A DNA stretch of 34,701 bases from a virus. The position numbers and the translations under genes were made by a program. Positions within the stretch are counted from its first letter, which is position 1. Every line of letters starts with the position of its first letter. The stretch is from positions 1-34,701 of IMG/VR virus record IMGVR_UViG_3300042540_000446; one strand, 5' to 3'. The notes beneath the pieces were generated by a model, which saw nothing but the letters and a program-made list of their open reading frames with translations, was not told the origin of the DNA and did not search any database. This document shows, one piece after another, positions 20,155-33,517 of this stretch.

Positions 20155-20631
20155 TTAGTTTGCTTCTTCGATCATGGACTGTTGCAAGTCACGATGATCT
20201 CGAGCCATTCGCTTGGCGGCTTGAGGCTTGCTCATGCCCTTGGCGACGTAATCGGCGAGAATGTCGTTCCACTGCTGACGGGCAGTCTTGCGAACTGCAG
20301 CCGGTGCAGCGGACGAAGCGACTGGCTGAACGCCTGGGCGAGCTTTAGCCGCTGGCATCATGACCATCTTTTCCTCTTCGTCGTCTTCTTCCTCGACTTC
20401 GACGACCTTCATCTCTTCGGCCTTCGTTTTCACTGCGGCCATTTCCTGTTCCATTGCAGCAAGCTTGGCCTTGAGCATTTCATTCTCTTTGACCATTTCG
20501 CTGTAATACATTTCGGCGACTTGCTCGTCGGTCATCTCTTGCTCGAGTGCGGCGACGATGAAGTCAGACTTGGCCAGCGGCCATCGAGCCTTGATGCTCT
20601 TGGTCGTTGCCAGAATCTTTTGGTTACTCAT
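20155..20631 (-). CDS. Nested scaffold protein inside the protease gene
   Basis: An internal in-frame ATG at 20631 has AAGGAG (20645-20640) eight bases upstream, a stronger signal than many true starts here. It would yield a separate 158-residue protein (MSNQKILATTKSIKARWPLA onward): a coiled coil, acidic run EEEDDEEEK, and a basic helical C-terminus (RKTARQQW...AAKRMARDHR). This is the lambda C/Nu3 arrangement, in which the scaffold is the C-terminal part of the protease read from its own start. Independent translation is inferred from the ribosome site. Confidence 0.65.
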   Translation of the reverse strand: MSNQKILATTKSIKARWPLAKSDFIVAALEQEMTDEQVAEMYYSEMVKENEMLKAKLAAMEQEMAAVKTKAEEMKVVEVEEEDDEEEKMVMMPAAKARPGVQPVASSAAPAAVRKTARQQWNDILADYVAKGMSKPQAAKRMARDHRDLQQSMIEEAN

Positions 20632-21765
20632 TGAGATTTCTCCTTGTTGAGTTTCCATTTCGCCGCTCGAGTCGCCGCTGACGTTCAGCGACTGATTGAC
20701 CCGCTCCGGCATGTTTCCTTGGTATTTCGCTGCGGCTGCACTTTTGCGAGCCGTTGGCAGGACGCGGTCCACGTAGCCTTGTGCGACGGCATCGCTGGCA
20801 TCGAGCCACGTTTCGGTCTGCATCACCTGCTGAATCTCTTCGGCCGTCTTGCCTGTCTTGTCCTGGTACACGGCCATCATCTTGTCGCGAAGCTTGGCGA
20901 GCTGTTCGGCGTCCTTGGCCAGCTTGGCGAAGTCGCCTTCGGTCTGCATCCAAGGGTTATGGATCATCAGGTAGCCGTTTTCGGTGATCTCGACCGTGTC
21001 GGCCGCCATTGCAATCAGGCTGGCAATACTGAACGCACTGGATTCGACGATGGCCCGGCTGCGGCCTTCCCATGCTGCGATGGCGTCGTAGATTCCAAAG
21101 CCATCGAACACGCTGCCGCCTTCGCTGTCGATGCGAATGATTAGCTCCTGCGACGGGTCAGCCTCTGCCAGTAATGTCTTGAACATCTGGCTGGTCATGC
21201 CCGGATAGCCAACGCTTCCGTAGAGCCGGATTTCGTTGCGTGCTGTCGTGACTGCGGCCCTTGGCTTGTCGGCGTTGTCTGCTGCGTCCATTTGCCTGTC
21301 GATTTTGTTAGCCCATGCTTGACCTGCATCGCCGCCCCACAGTGCCCACGCAATGCGGCCGGCTGATGGGAATCCGTCCTCGCCTGGCGAAAATCCCTCG
21401 CCCTGCTTGTCGACTTCGTGGCGGTCAAAGTAGGCTTTCATCCGGCGAGCCGTTTCGGGGCTGATGTTCTTGCCGTTGCTGAGGTCTCTTGCCCGTGCAA
21501 CGCCAACTTCAGTGCCGCCGCGGTTGTATTCGCGACGCCACTCAAGCCCGCGTGCCGCTTCTTCGCGAACGCCGGCCGGTGGTGAGAAGTCGATATGGTC
21601 ATATCTAACTGCTGCGACTGCTTCGGATGCGTACAGTGCGGCGATTTGCTTTTGTGCGGCTGCCTGCGAGGCGTGGCAGCCCATCAGCGAACCATCGGAG
21701 TCTTTGGTGACGCCAAACGGCTTGGCTGCTGGGCAGGCTTCGGTTTGTTCGATGCTATACGGCAT
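20155..21765 (-). CDS. ClpP-type prohead protease with scaffold-like C-terminus
   Basis: ATG 21765, with GAGGAG ten bases upstream inside the portal gene, gives 536 residues. Residues 1-160 hold two accessory segments, including a conserved RGLEWRREYNRGGTEVG domain. A ClpP/S49-like domain follows at about 178-340: IRIDSEGGSVFDGF, the catalytic-type Ser246 in SSAFSIASLIAMAAD, and His269 in MIHNPW; the acidic partner is uncertain. After about 378 come a Lys/Glu coiled coil and an acidic run, the usual scaffold features. A nested start for this part is listed separately. It cleaves head proteins during maturation. Confidence 0.8.
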   Translation of the reverse strand: MPYSIEQTEACPAAKPFGVTKDSDGSLMGCHASQAAAQKQIAALYASEAVAAVRYDHIDFSPPAGVREEAARGLEWRREYNRGGTEVGVARARDLSNGKNISPETARRMKAYFDRHEVDKQGEGFSPGEDGFPSAGRIAWALWGGDAGQAWANKIDRQMDAADNADKPRAAVTTARNEIRLYGSVGYPGMTSQMFKTLLAEADPSQELIIRIDSEGGSVFDGFGIYDAIAAWEGRSRAIVESSAFSIASLIAMAADTVEITENGYLMIHNPWMQTEGDFAKLAKDAEQLAKLRDKMMAVYQDKTGKTAEEIQQVMQTETWLDASDAVAQGYVDRVLPTARKSAAAAKYQGNMPERVNQSLNVSGDSSGEMETQQGEISMSNQKILATTKSIKARWPLAKSDFIVAALEQEMTDEQVAEMYYSEMVKENEMLKAKLAAMEQEMAAVKTKAEEMKVVEVEEEDDEEEKMVMMPAAKARPGVQPVASSAAPAAVRKTARQQWNDILADYVAKGMSKPQAAKRMARDHRDLQQSMIEEAN

Positions 21766-23584
21766 TGTCGTCGAACTCCTCGGCTGGAATGTCAACGCTT
21801 CCGTCGGTCGTGTCGCCGATTAGCTTTTTGATGTTGGCCGGTGAAAGGCCCAGCATCTCGAGCATCACCTCGGCCTCGCCTGCCTGCATTTGCCCGCTGG
21901 CCAGTTCGTTCTGGATGTCGCGGATGGCTTTGCGGTTGCGGTTCCACTGCTGGCGGCTGATGTCTTTGTATTCGCCGGTAGGTGCTGGCGGCTGGTCTGC
22001 CTGCTCTGCGGCATCGGCAGCCACGACGGCCGCCTGCGGGTCTTGCATCGTCATCTGGATGCCAGCCGGCATTGGCAGGCTGATAAGCTCACGCCAGTGA
22101 ACCGGTGCGTTGTCTTGGAACTGGTCGTTTATGGACTTGGCCCGCTGTTTCGCCTTCACGATGGCGTAGCTCATGTCCTGCACAATCTCATCGGCGACTT
22201 CTTCCCAGTCGCGTCCACCTTCAGCGTGCAATCGGCGTGGGCTGGTCAGTGCGTTCTGAATCCGCAGTGCATCGCCCTGGGCGTCCTTCACCGGGTCGAT
22301 GTATTGCCACGTCGGAGCGTTCCACTTGTGGCCGAAGATGTTGATGCCTTCGGTTTTGGCGGCTGCGGCCAGTGCCCGGTCTTCGGCAATCCACTGGCGA
22401 ACTTTGAACTCATAAACCGGCTTGTGGAGGCGATTCTGCAAGTTGGTCTGATTGGCCCTGAATCCCTTGCGGGCTTCGTCCACAGCGCCACGCCAGCCGC
22501 TGAAGTTCGTCTCGCTGCCGTCCATCAGAACCAGACACAGCGGGAGTCCCAAGTTGACGCCGATGATTTGCAGCATCAGCTTGACATGCGTGAAAAACTC
22601 AGCGTTCGGCACGTTCGGCGAAAAGCCCTGCAGCTCCTCGCCTTCGCCGCCGATGATTTCCATTCCCGGCCCGATGTTTTCGATGTAGCGGGTGCCGGCT
22701 CCGGTTTGCTCGACTTCCGGCAGGCCGTAGCCATCAGTGCTTGGCAGCGGTCCACCGCCGGCGACTGGGTTGCGTTTTCGGAAGATGGCGAAGCAGCTGA
22801 CGACCTGCTGCTGTACCAGCTTGGCGAAATTGATGTCCTCGAACATTCCGGCAACGCTAAAAATCGGAGCCAGTGCCGTAACGCCGCGGGTCTGATTCAC
22901 CCGGCGAGGGTTGTAAACGTGGAACAGCACGCGGTCGCCGTTCTCGTCACGGACGTCAATCGGCGTGGCGGTTTCTTTCAAGTTGCCAACGACAGCCAGC
23001 ACGCCACCTTCACGCTTGTCGGCGGAATACCAGTAGCGGTTTCGTCGGCCGTAGTTGTCGCGGGTCACGCCCAGGAATGTGTTCTCCTGCGGCGTGATAG
23101 TCTGGATGCTGTGAGCCTCAATTAGCTGCACCTGACCGCCAGCAGTGCCTAGGACGACCATGTCGCCGTCGAGCAGCACCGAACGCATAACGTGCCGCTC
23201 GATGTCTTGCCAGGTAAACTCGCCGGCCATATCGCAGTCGTCTGGCGAGCTGGTCCATGCTTGCCAGCGGTTCCAAAGCTCTAGGTCCAGCGACGGGTCG
23301 CCGGTTCGCACGTCAAGCGTGAATCCATCCTGCACGATGTTTGCCACAGACCGGTCGATTGTCTGTCCGACAATCGCGTCGTTGCGGTCCATGTCGCGGG
23401 CTTTTTCAATGTCCCGGTAGTAGAATTCCTCGGTGCGATAATGGAAATCAGCACCGCCGCCACGAGGTGCAAGGCCAGTGCGGCGACGGATGAACCGGCT
23501 CTCTCGGCTCATGTCATAATCGGCACGAATGTTGTCAAACGTGTTGGCGATGGTTTTGTTTTTCCGCCGTGGCGATGCCGTCAT
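21755..23584 (-). CDS. Portal protein (lambda B-like family)
   Basis: 609 residues. N-terminal SRESRFIRRRTGLAPRGGG and FYYRDIEKARDMDRNDAIVG are typical of lambda-like portals, as are VGQTIDRSVANIVQDGFTLD and FTWQDIERHVMRSVLLDGD. The C-terminus has a long helical region (LRRIQNALTSPRR-type crown). The gene follows the connector-like gene through an ATGA overlap and precedes the protease. Portals form the twelve-fold DNA gate of the head. The size is at the upper side of the family. Confidence 0.88.
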   Translation of the reverse strand: MTASPRRKNKTIANTFDNIRADYDMSRESRFIRRRTGLAPRGGGADFHYRTEEFYYRDIEKARDMDRNDAIVGQTIDRSVANIVQDGFTLDVRTGDPSLDLELWNRWQAWTSSPDDCDMAGEFTWQDIERHVMRSVLLDGDMVVLGTAGGQVQLIEAHSIQTITPQENTFLGVTRDNYGRRNRYWYSADKREGGVLAVVGNLKETATPIDVRDENGDRVLFHVYNPRRVNQTRGVTALAPIFSVAGMFEDINFAKLVQQQVVSCFAIFRKRNPVAGGGPLPSTDGYGLPEVEQTGAGTRYIENIGPGMEIIGGEGEELQGFSPNVPNAEFFTHVKLMLQIIGVNLGLPLCLVLMDGSETNFSGWRGAVDEARKGFRANQTNLQNRLHKPVYEFKVRQWIAEDRALAAAAKTEGINIFGHKWNAPTWQYIDPVKDAQGDALRIQNALTSPRRLHAEGGRDWEEVADEIVQDMSYAIVKAKQRAKSINDQFQDNAPVHWRELISLPMPAGIQMTMQDPQAAVVAADAAEQADQPPAPTGEYKDISRQQWNRNRKAIRDIQNELASGQMQAGEAEVMLEMLGLSPANIKKLIGDTTDGSVDIPAEEFDDNAV

Positions 23585-30240: not shown

Positions 30241-30438
30241 TTAATTCTCCTTTGAATCGAGGCGGTCGTTGATTTGTGTGATTCGTTCCCAAAGATTCTC
30301 GCGGTCTTGGCGGCACGTGATGACTTCCGCCTTGAGTTCATCAAACTGCGTGACGAACCAGCGAAACATCCAAGTCGTCGCTCCTGCAAGAGAGCCAACG
30401 GCAACGGTCAAGGCTCCAATCAAAGTCAAATCAGTCAC
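30241..30438 (-). CDS. Small membrane protein (65 aa), holin- or spanin-like
   Basis: GTG 30438 opens a 65-residue product. One membrane span (LIGALTVAVGSLAGATTWMF) is followed by an amphipathic charged coiled coil (FDELKAEVITCRQDRENLWE). This layout is seen in small phage membrane proteins of lysis cassettes. It follows the papain-like gene. The role in membrane disruption is inferred from location; an assembly or anchor role would also fit. Confidence 0.5.
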   Translation of the reverse strand: MTDLTLIGALTVAVGSLAGATTWMFRWFVTQFDELKAEVITCRQDRENLWERITQINDRLDSKEN

Positions 30439-30451
30439 GGCGATGACCTTC

Positions 30452-31273
30452 TTAGCTAATGGGTTTCGGGGTTGGAAAACTCATCCCGTCCGGTGCGTAA
30501 CCGATAAACACCGTCCAGCGGGCTTTGAGAGCCTCCTTGACGCTGTCAATCGTCCATTCGTGAACGCCGTCGCCATTCCACCGCGTTCCCCACGAATTGA
30601 TGTTGACGATGTTTCCACTGGCTCGCCGTTGCCAGAACACCGTCGAATGTCCGCCACCGGAGCGGGATGAATAATTGGAAACGACTTCTTGGTCGCAGGT
30701 GCTGTTCCAAGTCAGGCCGACCTGAATGGGCAAACCAGACTCGATCCACTGTGTGACGCTGTCGATGTCCTTCAGCGGCTTGGTCGCCTTCAGCTTGAAA
30801 TTGAATTTGCCGTTTGCACTTGGCGGCATCCCTGGGTTGTATCGCTGCGGATATGGCCAATCGGACTCGAGACAGATGCCGTGCTGCGTTGCCACCCACT
30901 GCCCGCCGCTTAGTGTGCTGCCCTTGTCGCCGCTGATGCCGTCGCGTTTCTGTGCCAGGTAGTAGCCGGCTGAACGGCTGAAAGTCTCATGGCGGCCGGT
31001 CGCCAAGAAGTAGCAGATGCTGAACACTTGCGCCAGTGCGTTGCCTTGGCAGCTGCCCTGCATCCCTTGATCAAAGACCTTCAGCACGCCCAGCGGGTCC
31101 GCCTGCGTGTCGAACTTTGGAAAAGCGTCCCGGTAGTGCTTCAGCACCAGCTCCGCTTCGCTGCCGCGTTCTTCGAGTTCGTCCAGGCGTTCCCAGTCGA
31201 ACGCATAACCCATCCGGCCCGGCGTCAGGTCTTTTGTCGATTGTGGAGGCTGTGACGGTTTGCTTTTGCTCAC
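30452..31273 (-). CDS. Papain-like (C1-type) cysteine protease
   Basis: 273 residues. FDQGMQGSCQGNAL gives Gln69 and catalytic Cys75, the Q-to-C spacing of six seen in papain. LSGGQWVATQHGICLESDWPYP fits the C1 region, GGGHSTVFW gives His209, and NINSWGTRWNGDG gives Asn226 (NSWG). All four active-site residues are present. No signal peptide or propeptide is evident; the first 55 residues are charged. The ATG overlaps the stop of the secreted protein gene as ATGA. Papain-fold enzymes in phages are rare; here it is part of the lysis/export cassette, maybe acting on envelope proteins. Confidence 0.82.
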   Translation of the reverse strand: MSKSKPSQPPQSTKDLTPGRMGYAFDWERLDELEERGSEAELVLKHYRDAFPKFDTQADPLGVLKVFDQGMQGSCQGNALAQVFSICYFLATGRHETFSRSAGYYLAQKRDGISGDKGSTLSGGQWVATQHGICLESDWPYPQRYNPGMPPSANGKFNFKLKATKPLKDIDSVTQWIESGLPIQVGLTWNSTCDQEVVSNYSSRSGGGHSTVFWQRRASGNIVNINSWGTRWNGDGVHEWTIDSVKEALKARWTVFIGYAPDGMSFPTPKPIS

Positions 31274-32040
31274 TTCTTCGCCTCCATCGCCGTTGCGATT
31301 TCCGTCAGCACCTTGAACCAGTCCTCGCGGCTGAAACTGCCACGATTGGCCTGCGAGGCCTTCATCGCCTCATCCAGCTTGGATTTCCATTTGCCCCACT
31401 CCTCGCACTTGATTGGGTCTGCACATTGCCGATTGGCGATTGCCGTGTTGATGTCGGCGATGATGTTGCTGATGTCCCTGAGCTGGCCGCCAGCGCCAAA
31501 CAGTTTGCCGGCTCCGTCTCGGTAGACTTTGGCAAACTTGGTAAGGTTTGGCGGGTCCAGCGGGACCAGCTGATAAGTTAAAAGGCCGACGCCGTAGTCG
31601 TTTGGGACGACTTCCGGCTGTGGCTCCGGCGGCGTCGGCTTCGGAGGCACAGGAGAAGGGGGGCCTGCTCCGATATTGAATTTGATTTCCGCATCGTCAA
31701 TTCCCTTGTCGGGGTCGAATACCGTCACCTCGACGACGTAATCGCCAGTACCAGCGAACAGGTAGACGCTGTCCGAGAGCTTCTCGGCCTCGATGCGGTT
31801 TCCGTTCTGGCGTGCTTTGACCCGCTGAAACTTGTAATCGCTTTTAACCTCGAGCAGCACCACATCGCTGACGCTCACATTGGAGTCATCACCGACCAGG
31901 ATGCGGTTGCCCTGCACCTGCGGATTGGTGACGCCTAGTAGTGCCTTCTTTCGGGTTACGGTCGTCTCGACCTGTGCCGATACAAAGCTGCAAAGCAGCA
32001 GGAATGCCGTAACGAAAATGGCCGTGGTTTTGTTACGCAT
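31270..32040 (-). CDS. Secreted two-domain protein with Pro-rich linker
   Basis: 256 residues with an N-terminal signal peptide (KTTAIFVTAFLLLCSFVSA, cut after about residue 22). Residues 23-125 look like an Ig/PKD-like beta domain (YVVEVTVFDPDKGIDDAEI), followed by a proline-rich linker (127-145, PPSPVPPKPTPPEPQPE). The helical C-terminal domain has one Cys pair (Cys206, Cys212). The product must leave the cytoplasm. Its ATG overlaps the stop of the upstream gene as TGATG, and its stop overlaps the papain-like start. It may be an adhesin, an inhibitor or a partner of the protease. Confidence 0.7.
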   Translation of the reverse strand: MRNKTTAIFVTAFLLLCSFVSAQVETTVTRKKALLGVTNPQVQGNRILVGDDSNVSVSDVVLLEVKSDYKFQRVKARQNGNRIEAEKLSDSVYLFAGTGDYVVEVTVFDPDKGIDDAEIKFNIGAGPPSPVPPKPTPPEPQPEVVPNDYGVGLLTYQLVPLDPPNLTKFAKVYRDGAGKLFGAGGQLRDISNIIADINTAIANRQCADPIKCEEWGKWKSKLDEAMKASQANRGSFSREDWFKVLTEIATAMEAKK

Positions 32041-32276
32041 CAGATCACCGAAAAGGCTTTGAGAATAATCAGCACAATCTCAAGCACCTTCTCCCAATCG
32101 ACCTGCGACCAGTCGATTTTGGCCTGATGCGTCACGAGTTTATTAGCCACTTCTTCTTCAATGCAGGCCGCAAAATCGGGGTCACGACGGCAACGTCGCG
32201 CCAGCCACCGCAAACCGATTCGCCTGGTCAACGGCTCGTGCTTGGACTTGTCTTCAATCAGCTCAACGAACGTCAT
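32040..32276 (-). CDS. Hypothetical protein with hydrophobic C-terminus (78 aa)
   Basis: 78 residues from ATG 32276, GGAGG upstream. The N-terminal half is basic (RRIGLRWLARRCRRD), the middle is acidic, and the last 15 residues are hydrophobic (VLEIVLIILKAFSVI). It overlaps the 33-residue membrane gene by 14 bases and the secreted-protein gene as TGATG. It may be tail-anchored. No family is recognised. Confidence 0.5.
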   Translation of the reverse strand: MTFVELIEDKSKHEPLTRRIGLRWLARRCRRDPDFAACIEEEVANKLVTHQAKIDWSQVDWEKVLEIVLIILKAFSVI

Positions 32277-32364
32277 CTTGCCCTCCGTGAATCTCCGCCA
32301 GCACGCTCAGCGTACTGACCAGCACAATCGCCAGCAGCATCAGCCCAAGTAGCTCGCCGCTCAT
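32263..32364 (-). CDS. 33-residue membrane peptide
   Basis: ATG 32364 overlaps the upstream stop as ATGA and has GTGGAG five bases upstream. The product is MSGELLGLMLLAIVLVSTLS onward, 33 residues, consisting of one membrane span and a short hydrophilic tail (AEIHGGQDDVR). Its position next to the two-span holin-like gene suggests a holin/antiholin partner. It is too short to be certain, but coupling on both sides supports it. Confidence 0.5.
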   Translation of the reverse strand: MSGELLGLMLLAIVLVSTLSVLAEIHGGQDDVR

Positions 32365-32609
32365 GACCGCTCCACGTACTGTGGCGACACCTTTACGAGC
32401 AACAGCGTCTCGAGCACCGGCCAGCGTTTGGCCAGCAAGCCGATTCCAGCATTGGCCAGCCCGGTCAGCACCACGATGATTGCGGCCTCGACGGCCAGCG
32501 ACTGGTCCGGCGTAAAGGCAACGCCCAGGTACTTCAGCAGGAACGCCGCCAGCCACGCCCAAACGGACGAGGCAGCGACGCGGACGAATCGGGTCAGGAT
32601 GTCAGACAT
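32361..32609 (-). CDS. Two-span holin-like membrane protein (82 aa)
   Basis: ATG 32609 overlaps the upstream stop as TAATG, with AGGTGG upstream. The 82-residue product has two membrane spans (SSVWAWLAAFLLKYLGVAF; AVEAAIIVVLTGLANAGIGL) and short charged ends. The size and topology fit class II or III holins, which time host lysis by opening the inner membrane. No sequence family is recognised, so the call is based on topology and position. Confidence 0.55.
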   Translation of the reverse strand: MSDILTRFVRVAASSVWAWLAAFLLKYLGVAFTPDQSLAVEAAIIVVLTGLANAGIGLLAKRWPVLETLLLVKVSPQYVERS

Positions 32610-32815
32610 TAAAACCACCTTTTGCGTTGTGCTGGTTCCCAGTATTTCTCAGCGTAATAACCCCGCATCCATGCAAGTCGCCGAATGCTTCCGCCCTTGT
32701 CGCTTGGCCACGGACAGCAGCTGCTATCCTTGCCAGTCAGGAATGCCTTTCGGCCTTCCCTTTCGTCGTCCTCGTAATTCACCAGCGGGCTGATTTCCCT
32801 TTCTTGAGTGGCCAT
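32609..32815 (-). CDS. Ribosome modulation factor (RMF)-like protein
   Basis: 68 residues from ATG 32815, with GGGAGG upstream. The core EGRKAFLTGKDSSCCPWPSD and RLAWMRGYYAEK follow the RMF/CrpP-type pattern G-x-x-A-x(3)-G ... C-P-[WY] ... W-x-x-G-[YW]. Cellular RMF dimerises ribosomes in hibernation. The phage version may bind ribosomes or host proteins late in infection, or act as a structural small protein. Its place within the lysis cassette is notable. The similarity is by pattern only. Confidence 0.55.
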   Translation of the reverse strand: MATQEREISPLVNYEDDEREGRKAFLTGKDSSCCPWPSDKGGSIRRLAWMRGYYAEKYWEPAQRKRWF

Positions 32816-32839
32816 CCGTTAGCCTCCCGCTTTGGATGG

Positions 32840-33517
32840 CTATCGCTTGCCCAGCAATCGACGGACTGCTGAACAAGTCCCAGCGCGAACCGGTGCGGTG
32901 ATGCTGGTCGCGTGTCCGTACACGTTTTTCAACTTCTTTTTGCACCAGACCGAACCGCCTGACACCACGCCGCAGACCTTGCCGGCTGCATTCACAACCG
33001 GCCCGCCGCTGTCACCGGGTATCGCCCAGGAGAAAAGCACTTGTGATTTTTCGGCAACGCCAGCCACCTTGGCCTTAAAGCATCGCAGTGGCCCGCCACC
33101 GCCGAATCCGCAGACGCTAACCTCTTCGCCTTCAGCCACGTCGTCGGCAACCTCGAGCACGCTGCAGCCTTCCGGCGTCTTGCAGTTGAGCACCGCCACG
33201 TCCGCTTCCTGGTCAATGCCTCGCAGCGTTGCGTTATTGGTGGCAGACCCGTCGTGGAAGCTGACGGTGAAAGACTGGTTGCCGCTGGCGATGTGTGCCG
33301 CGGTCAAAATGGCTGGCCCGTTATTGGCGGCCACGATGCACCCGGTTCCGGTGCCGCCGTCGCTGTTGCCGCGAACGACCACGACCGCACTTTCGACGCA
33401 CGGGTCGCACTGAACAAATTCCCAGAGGCCGGAATCCTTGCCGACTTGCCCCACAGCCTGCGAGACAAAAAGAGAAATGACGACCAAAGCTAATGCAGAC
33501 AGCTTGGCGAGATTCAC
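32840..33517 (-). CDS. Secreted trypsin-like serine protease
   Basis: 225 residues from GTG 33517 with AGGTG four bases upstream. A signal peptide (LAKLSALALVVISLFVSQAVG) is followed by the trypsin/chymotrypsin-fold triad: His75 in LTAAHIASG, Asp106 in DVAVLNC, Ser170 in PGDSGGPV. Ten Cys in the mature part suggest disulfides, consistent with export. It could cleave envelope or competitor proteins. A secreted S1 protease in a phage late operon is unusual. It opens the lysis cassette, just before the RMF-like gene. Confidence 0.85.
   Translation of the reverse strand: MNLAKLSALALVVISLFVSQAVGQVGKDSGLWEFVQCDPCVESAVVVVRGNSDGGTGTGCIVAANNGPAILTAAHIASGNQSFTVSFHDGSATNNATLRGIDQEADVAVLNCKTPEGCSVLEVADDVAEGEEVSVCGFGGGGPLRCFKAKVAGVAEKSQVLFSWAIPGDSGGPVVNAAGKVCGVVSGGSVWCKKKLKNVYGHATSITAPVRAGTCSAVRRLLGKR

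Follow-up and report, generated by a model that had tools for sequence, protein, structure and literature searches.

How does a tailed phage leave its host when the place usually held by endolysin, holin and spanin is occupied by proteases? The question is raised by IMG/VR virus record IMGVR_UViG_3300042540_000446, a stretch of 34,701 nucleotides (nt) (linear class, 34.7 kb, probably less than the whole genome; hereafter the window) whose main genes all lie on the minus strand. An overlapping operon of eight genes at 33517-30241 (-), the cassette, contains both a trypsin-like and a papain-like protease, and an earlier note on this DNA had proposed that it serves lysis or export with no recognised peptidoglycan (PG) hydrolase. 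We lean, by a modest measure, towards a release module of a phage of Planctomycetota, in which proteolysis would replace the PG hydrolase and lysis is the presumed outcome. The reading is preferred because the cassette is a compact late operon combining export signals, small membrane proteins and hydrolases, because a unit of it is kept in unrelated phages whose hosts belong to one phylum, and because no other exit enzyme was recognised.

Both hydrolases could be assigned to families. The trypsin-like protein matches Pfam Trypsin_2 (E = 1.9e-16), its N terminus is hydrophobic, and its His75/Asp106/Ser170 triad is unchanged in all nine sequences compared (the window and eight relatives). By profile and triad it is predicted to be an S1/Trypsin_2 serine protease; Pfam matched no HtrA/DegP-type PDZ domain in its 225 amino acids (aa), and the gene is distributed among near relatives only. 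The papain-like protein (hereafter the papain) scored 26 bits against Peptidase_C1 (PF00112), over the cut-off of 20.7, and Gln69, Cys75, His209 and Asn226 are invariant in the alignment of its homologues wherever the sequence is present. Its AlphaFold2 (AF2) model (pTM 0.85) showed a C1A fold by Foldseek, with xylellain (3ois; E = 1.8e-11) as the best match; the next matches were cathepsins rather than CHAP or NlpC enzymes. Xylellain is the best solved relative by sequence as well. Profile, active-site residues and modelled fold thus place it in the C1 family, with protease activity predicted. A signal peptide was looked for and none was seen, and INPHARED held no close homologue, with two weak matches only. 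In one homologue (L089:2509-3663), a 385-aa intein lies directly before the catalytic Cys; it begins with Cys, ends in His-Asn, carries LAGLIDADG-like motifs and matches the intein endonucleases PI-PkoII and PI-SceI. Inteins prefer sites where a loss kills protein function, as is typical of indispensable catalytic sites. The intein position therefore supports an essential catalytic cysteine in these predicted proteases. A lytic protease could also be switched by the splicing of this intein.

The gene coupled to the papain encodes an exported protein (hereafter the partner), whose AF2 model, with a mean predicted local distance difference test score of 85, comprises a signal peptide, an immunoglobulin (Ig)-like beta domain, a Pro-rich linker modelled with low confidence, and a domain of five helices with three invariant Trp residues (W215, W218 and W241). 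Foldseek gave a general likeness to CopC and Ig folds, confined to the N-domain, and no convincing structural match for the helical domain in PDB or BFVD. A chagasin-like inhibitor, considered as a candidate for the Ig domain, had no profile match, and a lipobox is absent from the sequence. No homologue of the partner was found in INPHARED, and a search of 392 Planctomycetota genomes was empty, an answer that proves little. The secreted trypsin-like protease, the secreted two-domain protein and the papain-like protease described in the earlier note are thus borne out by profiles and models.

Homologues of the papain were found at 24 IMG/VR loci, among them near-duplicate contigs (L002-L004, L006/L007, L014/L015 and L023/L024), and the partner lies directly 5' of it in 22 of the 24. 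Contig ends cut both exceptions: one contig begins inside the papain gene (L012), and the other ends inside it, with the partner present (L019). An exact 4-nt stop/start overlap joins partner and papain at 19 loci counting the window (the window plus 18), and the other spacings are a 1-nt overlap (L026 and L019), a 7-nt gap (L023/L024) and one inserted gene (L018). By blastp, three genomes (G008, G010 and G014) share nothing with the window beyond the pair, and in four more (G009, G011, G013 and G015) the pair is accompanied by no more than one or two shared genes of weak similarity. Since this adjacency is found in otherwise unrelated phages and the trypsin gene in the near group only, we reasoned from gene content that the irreducible unit is the exported partner plus the papain. 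In several relatives, the pair is flanked by a transmembrane (TM)/coiled-coil protein and by a small protein that has a hydrophobic helix at its C terminus, the latter recognised by eye. A pair retained across unrelated phages would look like a host-specific exit module swapped between them.

The cassette is as tightly coupled as had been claimed, with successive intergenic spacings of 24, -1, -4, -14, -1, -4, 13 and 3 nt, that is, overlaps of 1-14 nt or gaps of 3-24 nt between neighbours. Downstream of its last (65-aa) gene follow a 116-aa protein, a 790-aa fibre-like protein and then terminase. Ratios of nonsynonymous to synonymous substitution rates (dN/dS) of 0.03-0.28 were obtained against L002, L008 and L009 for the open reading frames (ORFs) with clean alignment, and by this measure we therefore regard the cassette ORFs as real genes under purifying selection. 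An apparent value of 2.2 for the two-TM gene against L002 was put down to misalignment, the end coordinates being wrong; against L008 and L009 the ratio is 0.16-0.19. Elsewhere in the window, the head module (20155-21795) encodes a ClpP-type prohead protease, and capsid maturation would therefore need neither the papain nor the trypsin-like protein.

PG hydrolases were then sought in the window and its relatives. No lysozyme, amidase, CHAP or NlpC was detected by Pfam on 29 proteins of the window, and a six-frame search of 17 records, the window among them, for Amidase_2, NLPC_P60 and SLT found none, with control genomes giving a positive signal. The nearest long relative (G003, 42.1 kb) has genes missing from the window, and Pfam recognised no PG hydrolase in the best 25 of its 39 families. 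Three phages taken as complete from their terminal repeats of 123-127 nt (G008, G011 and G013) yielded none among their proteins of 105-500 aa (Pfam, E<=0.001). The absence stated in the earlier note therefore stands for the window, and neither a diverged PG hydrolase nearby nor a standard endolysin elsewhere in the genome was found. Amidase_2 was likewise not found in 28 capsid relatives, which gives no contrast between papain-bearing and papain-less phages. Three delta-proteobacterial loci carry the same capsid family (L194, L195 and L197); no obvious lysis genes were seen in their 21 kb, and they failed as a control. Their capsids suggest that the head module passes between phyla and that the release slot is not the same.

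Capsid relatives that lack the window's papain have other proteases in this slot, which lies between the early genes and terminase. In G031 it holds an exported protein of Trypsin_2 type as well as a reprolysin-like zincin, in G023 a divergent C1 protein with a thioredoxin-like neighbour, and in G030 an exported papain-like protein (assigned by motifs, with no Pfam match) together with a thioredoxin. An astacin-like zincin stands beside trypsin and papain in G003, whereas the stretch of G026 that was examined gave no recognisable protease. Erv1/Alr sulfhydryl-oxidase matches were noticed in two of the complete, pair-bearing phages (G011 and G013; proteins in L041-L044 and L048-L050). Thiol-disulfide proteins, namely Erv1/Alr and exported thioredoxins by papain genes, are thus recurrent in phages of hosts with cysteine-rich walls.

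The host phylum was approached through the capsid gene. A search with the capsid alignment gave 18 cellular loci, and seven of the 11 best belong to Planctomycetota, some of the contigs from metagenome-assembled genomes among the matches possibly being misbinned. The planctomycete matches comprise Planctomycetaceae, Pirellulales, Planctomycetia, Phycisphaerae and a complete chromosome, CP043547 (Planctomycetales bacterium 10988; G053); the more distant cellular matches are mostly delta-proteobacteria. Genomes were scanned with two alignments: that of the papain retrieved no relative, that of the capsid did. The phage group is thus likely tied to Planctomycetota via its capsid gene. What the planctomycete wall consists of, and how far it bears load, is debated; in these likely hosts it is made in part or entirely of protein, and many of them have little or no PG synthesis. 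According to PMC8567305, the cysteine-rich YTV wall proteins occur in Planctomycetales only, and most species of this order have no PG synthesis genes. In G053 itself, YTV was matched 18 times, and the best MraY score, 84.6 bits, fell short of the cut-off of 192. Because of the enzyme class and this host wall, the substrate would be host envelope protein. The lysis scheme for a protein-dominated envelope that the earlier note had offered gains from the host group and its YTV walls; lysis itself stays presumptive, and some candidate hosts have MraY. Its other suggestion, a delivery set aimed at host or competitor proteins, received no specific support.

Planctomycete chromosomes carry related arrangements. 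In the G053 prophage, a 342-aa TM/Ig/linker/helical protein lies directly before the tail (fibre) and terminase genes, in one block with a 516-aa exported protein bearing papain motifs (GDC, PHC and NSWG) and a 139-aa TM/coiled-coil protein. Judged by eye, this block has the same architecture as the cassette; its proteins are not claimed as homologues. In the G251 prophage, the papain homologue is a true one (E = 7e-22); an exported thioredoxin comes after it, again ahead of fibre and terminase. On two further chromosomes (G340 and G378), a papain homologue adjoins an exported thioredoxin-like protein with no clear phage neighbours; such an arrangement in planctomycetes (L205:9545-11337 and L206:9429-11316) may be a prophage remnant or a domesticated unit.

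The remaining products of the cassette are small (Table 1). The 82-aa protein, 81-89% identical in relatives and matching phrog_10742 (function unknown), is by size and topology the best holin candidate. The 33-aa peptide overlaps both neighbours, and its frame is kept in relatives including L089. Both TM proteins fit a holin in size and topology and match no holin family in Pfam or PHROG. The 65-aa protein is holin- or spanin-like in topology, with weak phrog_1009 and Rz-like matches (E = 0.17 for the latter), and the same topology recurs at the same place in L013, L018, L024, L026, L164 and L208; BhlA/UviB was considered for it and gave no Pfam match. Several small membrane proteins had been announced, and these three answer to the description; the C-terminal helix of the 78-aa protein falls below the usual TM threshold, and the 68-aa protein is soluble. 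The 78-aa gene has a dN/dS of 0.11-0.17, and small look-alikes of its product, recognised by eye, adjoin the papain gene of distant phages (L014, L016, L019, L025, L026 and L207). The 68-aa protein (dN/dS 0.11) matches phrog_13106 (E = 2e-6) and, below the cut-off, PF04957, ribosome modulation factor (RMF; E = 1.9e-4); an RMF match is also present in G011, a complete distant phage carrying the same partner-papain pair.

Table 1. Genes of the cassette in order, with the evidence for each product (KD, Kyte-Doolittle hydropathy)
Product	Position	Strand	Evidence
Trypsin-like serine protease (predicted; S1/Trypsin_2), exported, 225 aa, starts with GTG	32840..33517	-	Pfam, triad, hydrophobic N-terminus
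68-aa soluble protein, RMF-like	32609..32815	-	PF04957, phrog_13106, dN/dS
82-aa protein, probably two TM helices	32361..32609	-	KD peak 2.14
33-aa single-TM peptide	32263..32364	-	KD peak 2.65
78-aa protein, C-terminal hydrophobic/amphipathic helix	32040..32276	-	KD peak 1.40
Partner, exported, 256 aa: signal peptide, then Ig-like and helical domains joined by a Pro-rich linker	31270..32040	-	AF2
273-aa papain-family (C1) cysteine protease, ~60-aa N-terminal extension (predicted)	30452..31273	-	PF00112, AF2, Foldseek
65-aa protein, N-terminal TM + coiled coil	30241..30438	-	KD 1.61

In the scheme that we infer, which takes in timing, holin function, the role of the partner, substrate and lysis alike, the trypsin-like protease and the partner would be exported and wait in the periplasm while the papain builds up in the cytoplasm. 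As the infection ends, the inner membrane would be permeabilised by the small membrane proteins in the role of a holin, and the papain would reach the periplasm, where the co-translated partner may concentrate, activate or restrain it. The proteases would then jointly cut the protein network of the wall, and the cell would open.

Several points weigh against a proteolytic release module. Pfam missed the C1 domain in G008, G011 and G013, and a diverged PG hydrolase could escape likewise. MraY is present in six candidate hosts (G048, G051, G054, G251, G340 and G378), where a PG hydrolase should therefore still be useful, and several candidate hosts other than G053 carry both YTV and MraY. In profile comparison, the G053 prophage proteins matched those of the window weakly, leaving homology without statistical support, and no membrane protein of the cassette matches a known holin family. 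The MraY of many candidate hosts would suit a genuine endolysin from an unusual family, namely a peptidase of papain fold that cuts peptide bonds in a thin host PG. Endolysins with peptidase domains of the papain superfamily exist (C39-like N5 of mycobacteriophages; PMC3314691), and the annotated endolysin of Alicyclobacillus phage MMB025 fuses C1, Ig, glycoside-hydrolase-like and PG_binding_1 domains. However, the papain is C1A in fold and sequence, like xylellain and the cathepsins, and not CHAP, NlpC or amidase. Pfam found no PG-binding domain in the papain or the partner, nor did any PDB sequence match point to one, and relatives fill the slot with protein proteases of unrelated kinds; we consider an endolysin of this kind unlikely.

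A further point against release is that the papain, without a signal peptide and near fibre genes, could be a virion protein. It would then be an entry protease, assembled on the tail in the cytoplasm and opening the protein surface layer, with the exported proteins serving otherwise; the protein-rich host envelope and a gene position immediately ahead of the fibre genes, seen in the window as in the two planctomycete prophages, are in keeping with this. Yet its strictly coupled partner is exported, unlike what virion assembly would lead one to expect, signal peptides are carried by the analogous G053 and G030 proteases and by the window trypsin, and no release gene would remain, so that entry appears about as improbable as the endolysin. 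Finally, a planctomycete phage with release without lysis is known (PMC10945688), and exported proteases are able to strip receptors. The cassette might accordingly remodel the host surface in chronic release, superinfection exclusion or amino acid supply. Given its lysis-cassette anatomy, with several small membrane proteins and a late-region position, and the retention of the pair in unrelated phages as for a core function, we regard this as very improbable. Release by proteolysis thus remains the reading that we prefer.

Like a canonical holin-endolysin-spanin cassette, the module of the window is a compact overlapping operon by structural genes with small membrane proteins, an exported protein and a signal-less hydrolase; unlike it, it has C1 and S1 proteases and no recognised PG hydrolase or holin family. 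Xylellain, the C1A cysteine protease of Xylella, shares the fold, the catalytic residues and an N-terminal extension with the papain, but it is cellular and about 22% identical, and we know of no coupled Ig-helical partner for it. The N5 (PMC3314691) and MMB025 endolysins also place a papain-superfamily peptidase in a lysis protein, that of MMB025 next to an Ig domain. In MMB025 the peptidase is fused to glycoside-hydrolase-like and PG-binding domains, whereas the window papain stands alone beside its Ig-helical partner. PeiW and PeiP, pseudomurein endoisopeptidases of archaeal viruses as they are cited in passages of PMC12596118 and PMC10318531, are likewise viral cysteine peptidases directed against a non-PG wall; going by those descriptions, and not by sequence, they differ in family and wall. 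No account of phage lysis of Planctomycetota was found in the literature searched.

We tentatively raise the possibility, a good deal less assured than the release module itself, that a class of tailed phages exits by protein digestion alone, with serine and cysteine (in relatives, metallo-) proteases exported together and small membrane proteins replacing the endolysin, because the wall of their Planctomycetales hosts would be a disulfide-rich protein network. The thioredoxin-like proteins encoded nearby in relatives would then assist by reducing this network. The strictly coupled pair offers an easy marker for planctomycete phages. If the reading is true, it would explain blank endolysin searches in a large group of environmental viruses, and the module would point to the wall component that holds the planctomycete cell together and supply enzymes with which to probe that wall.

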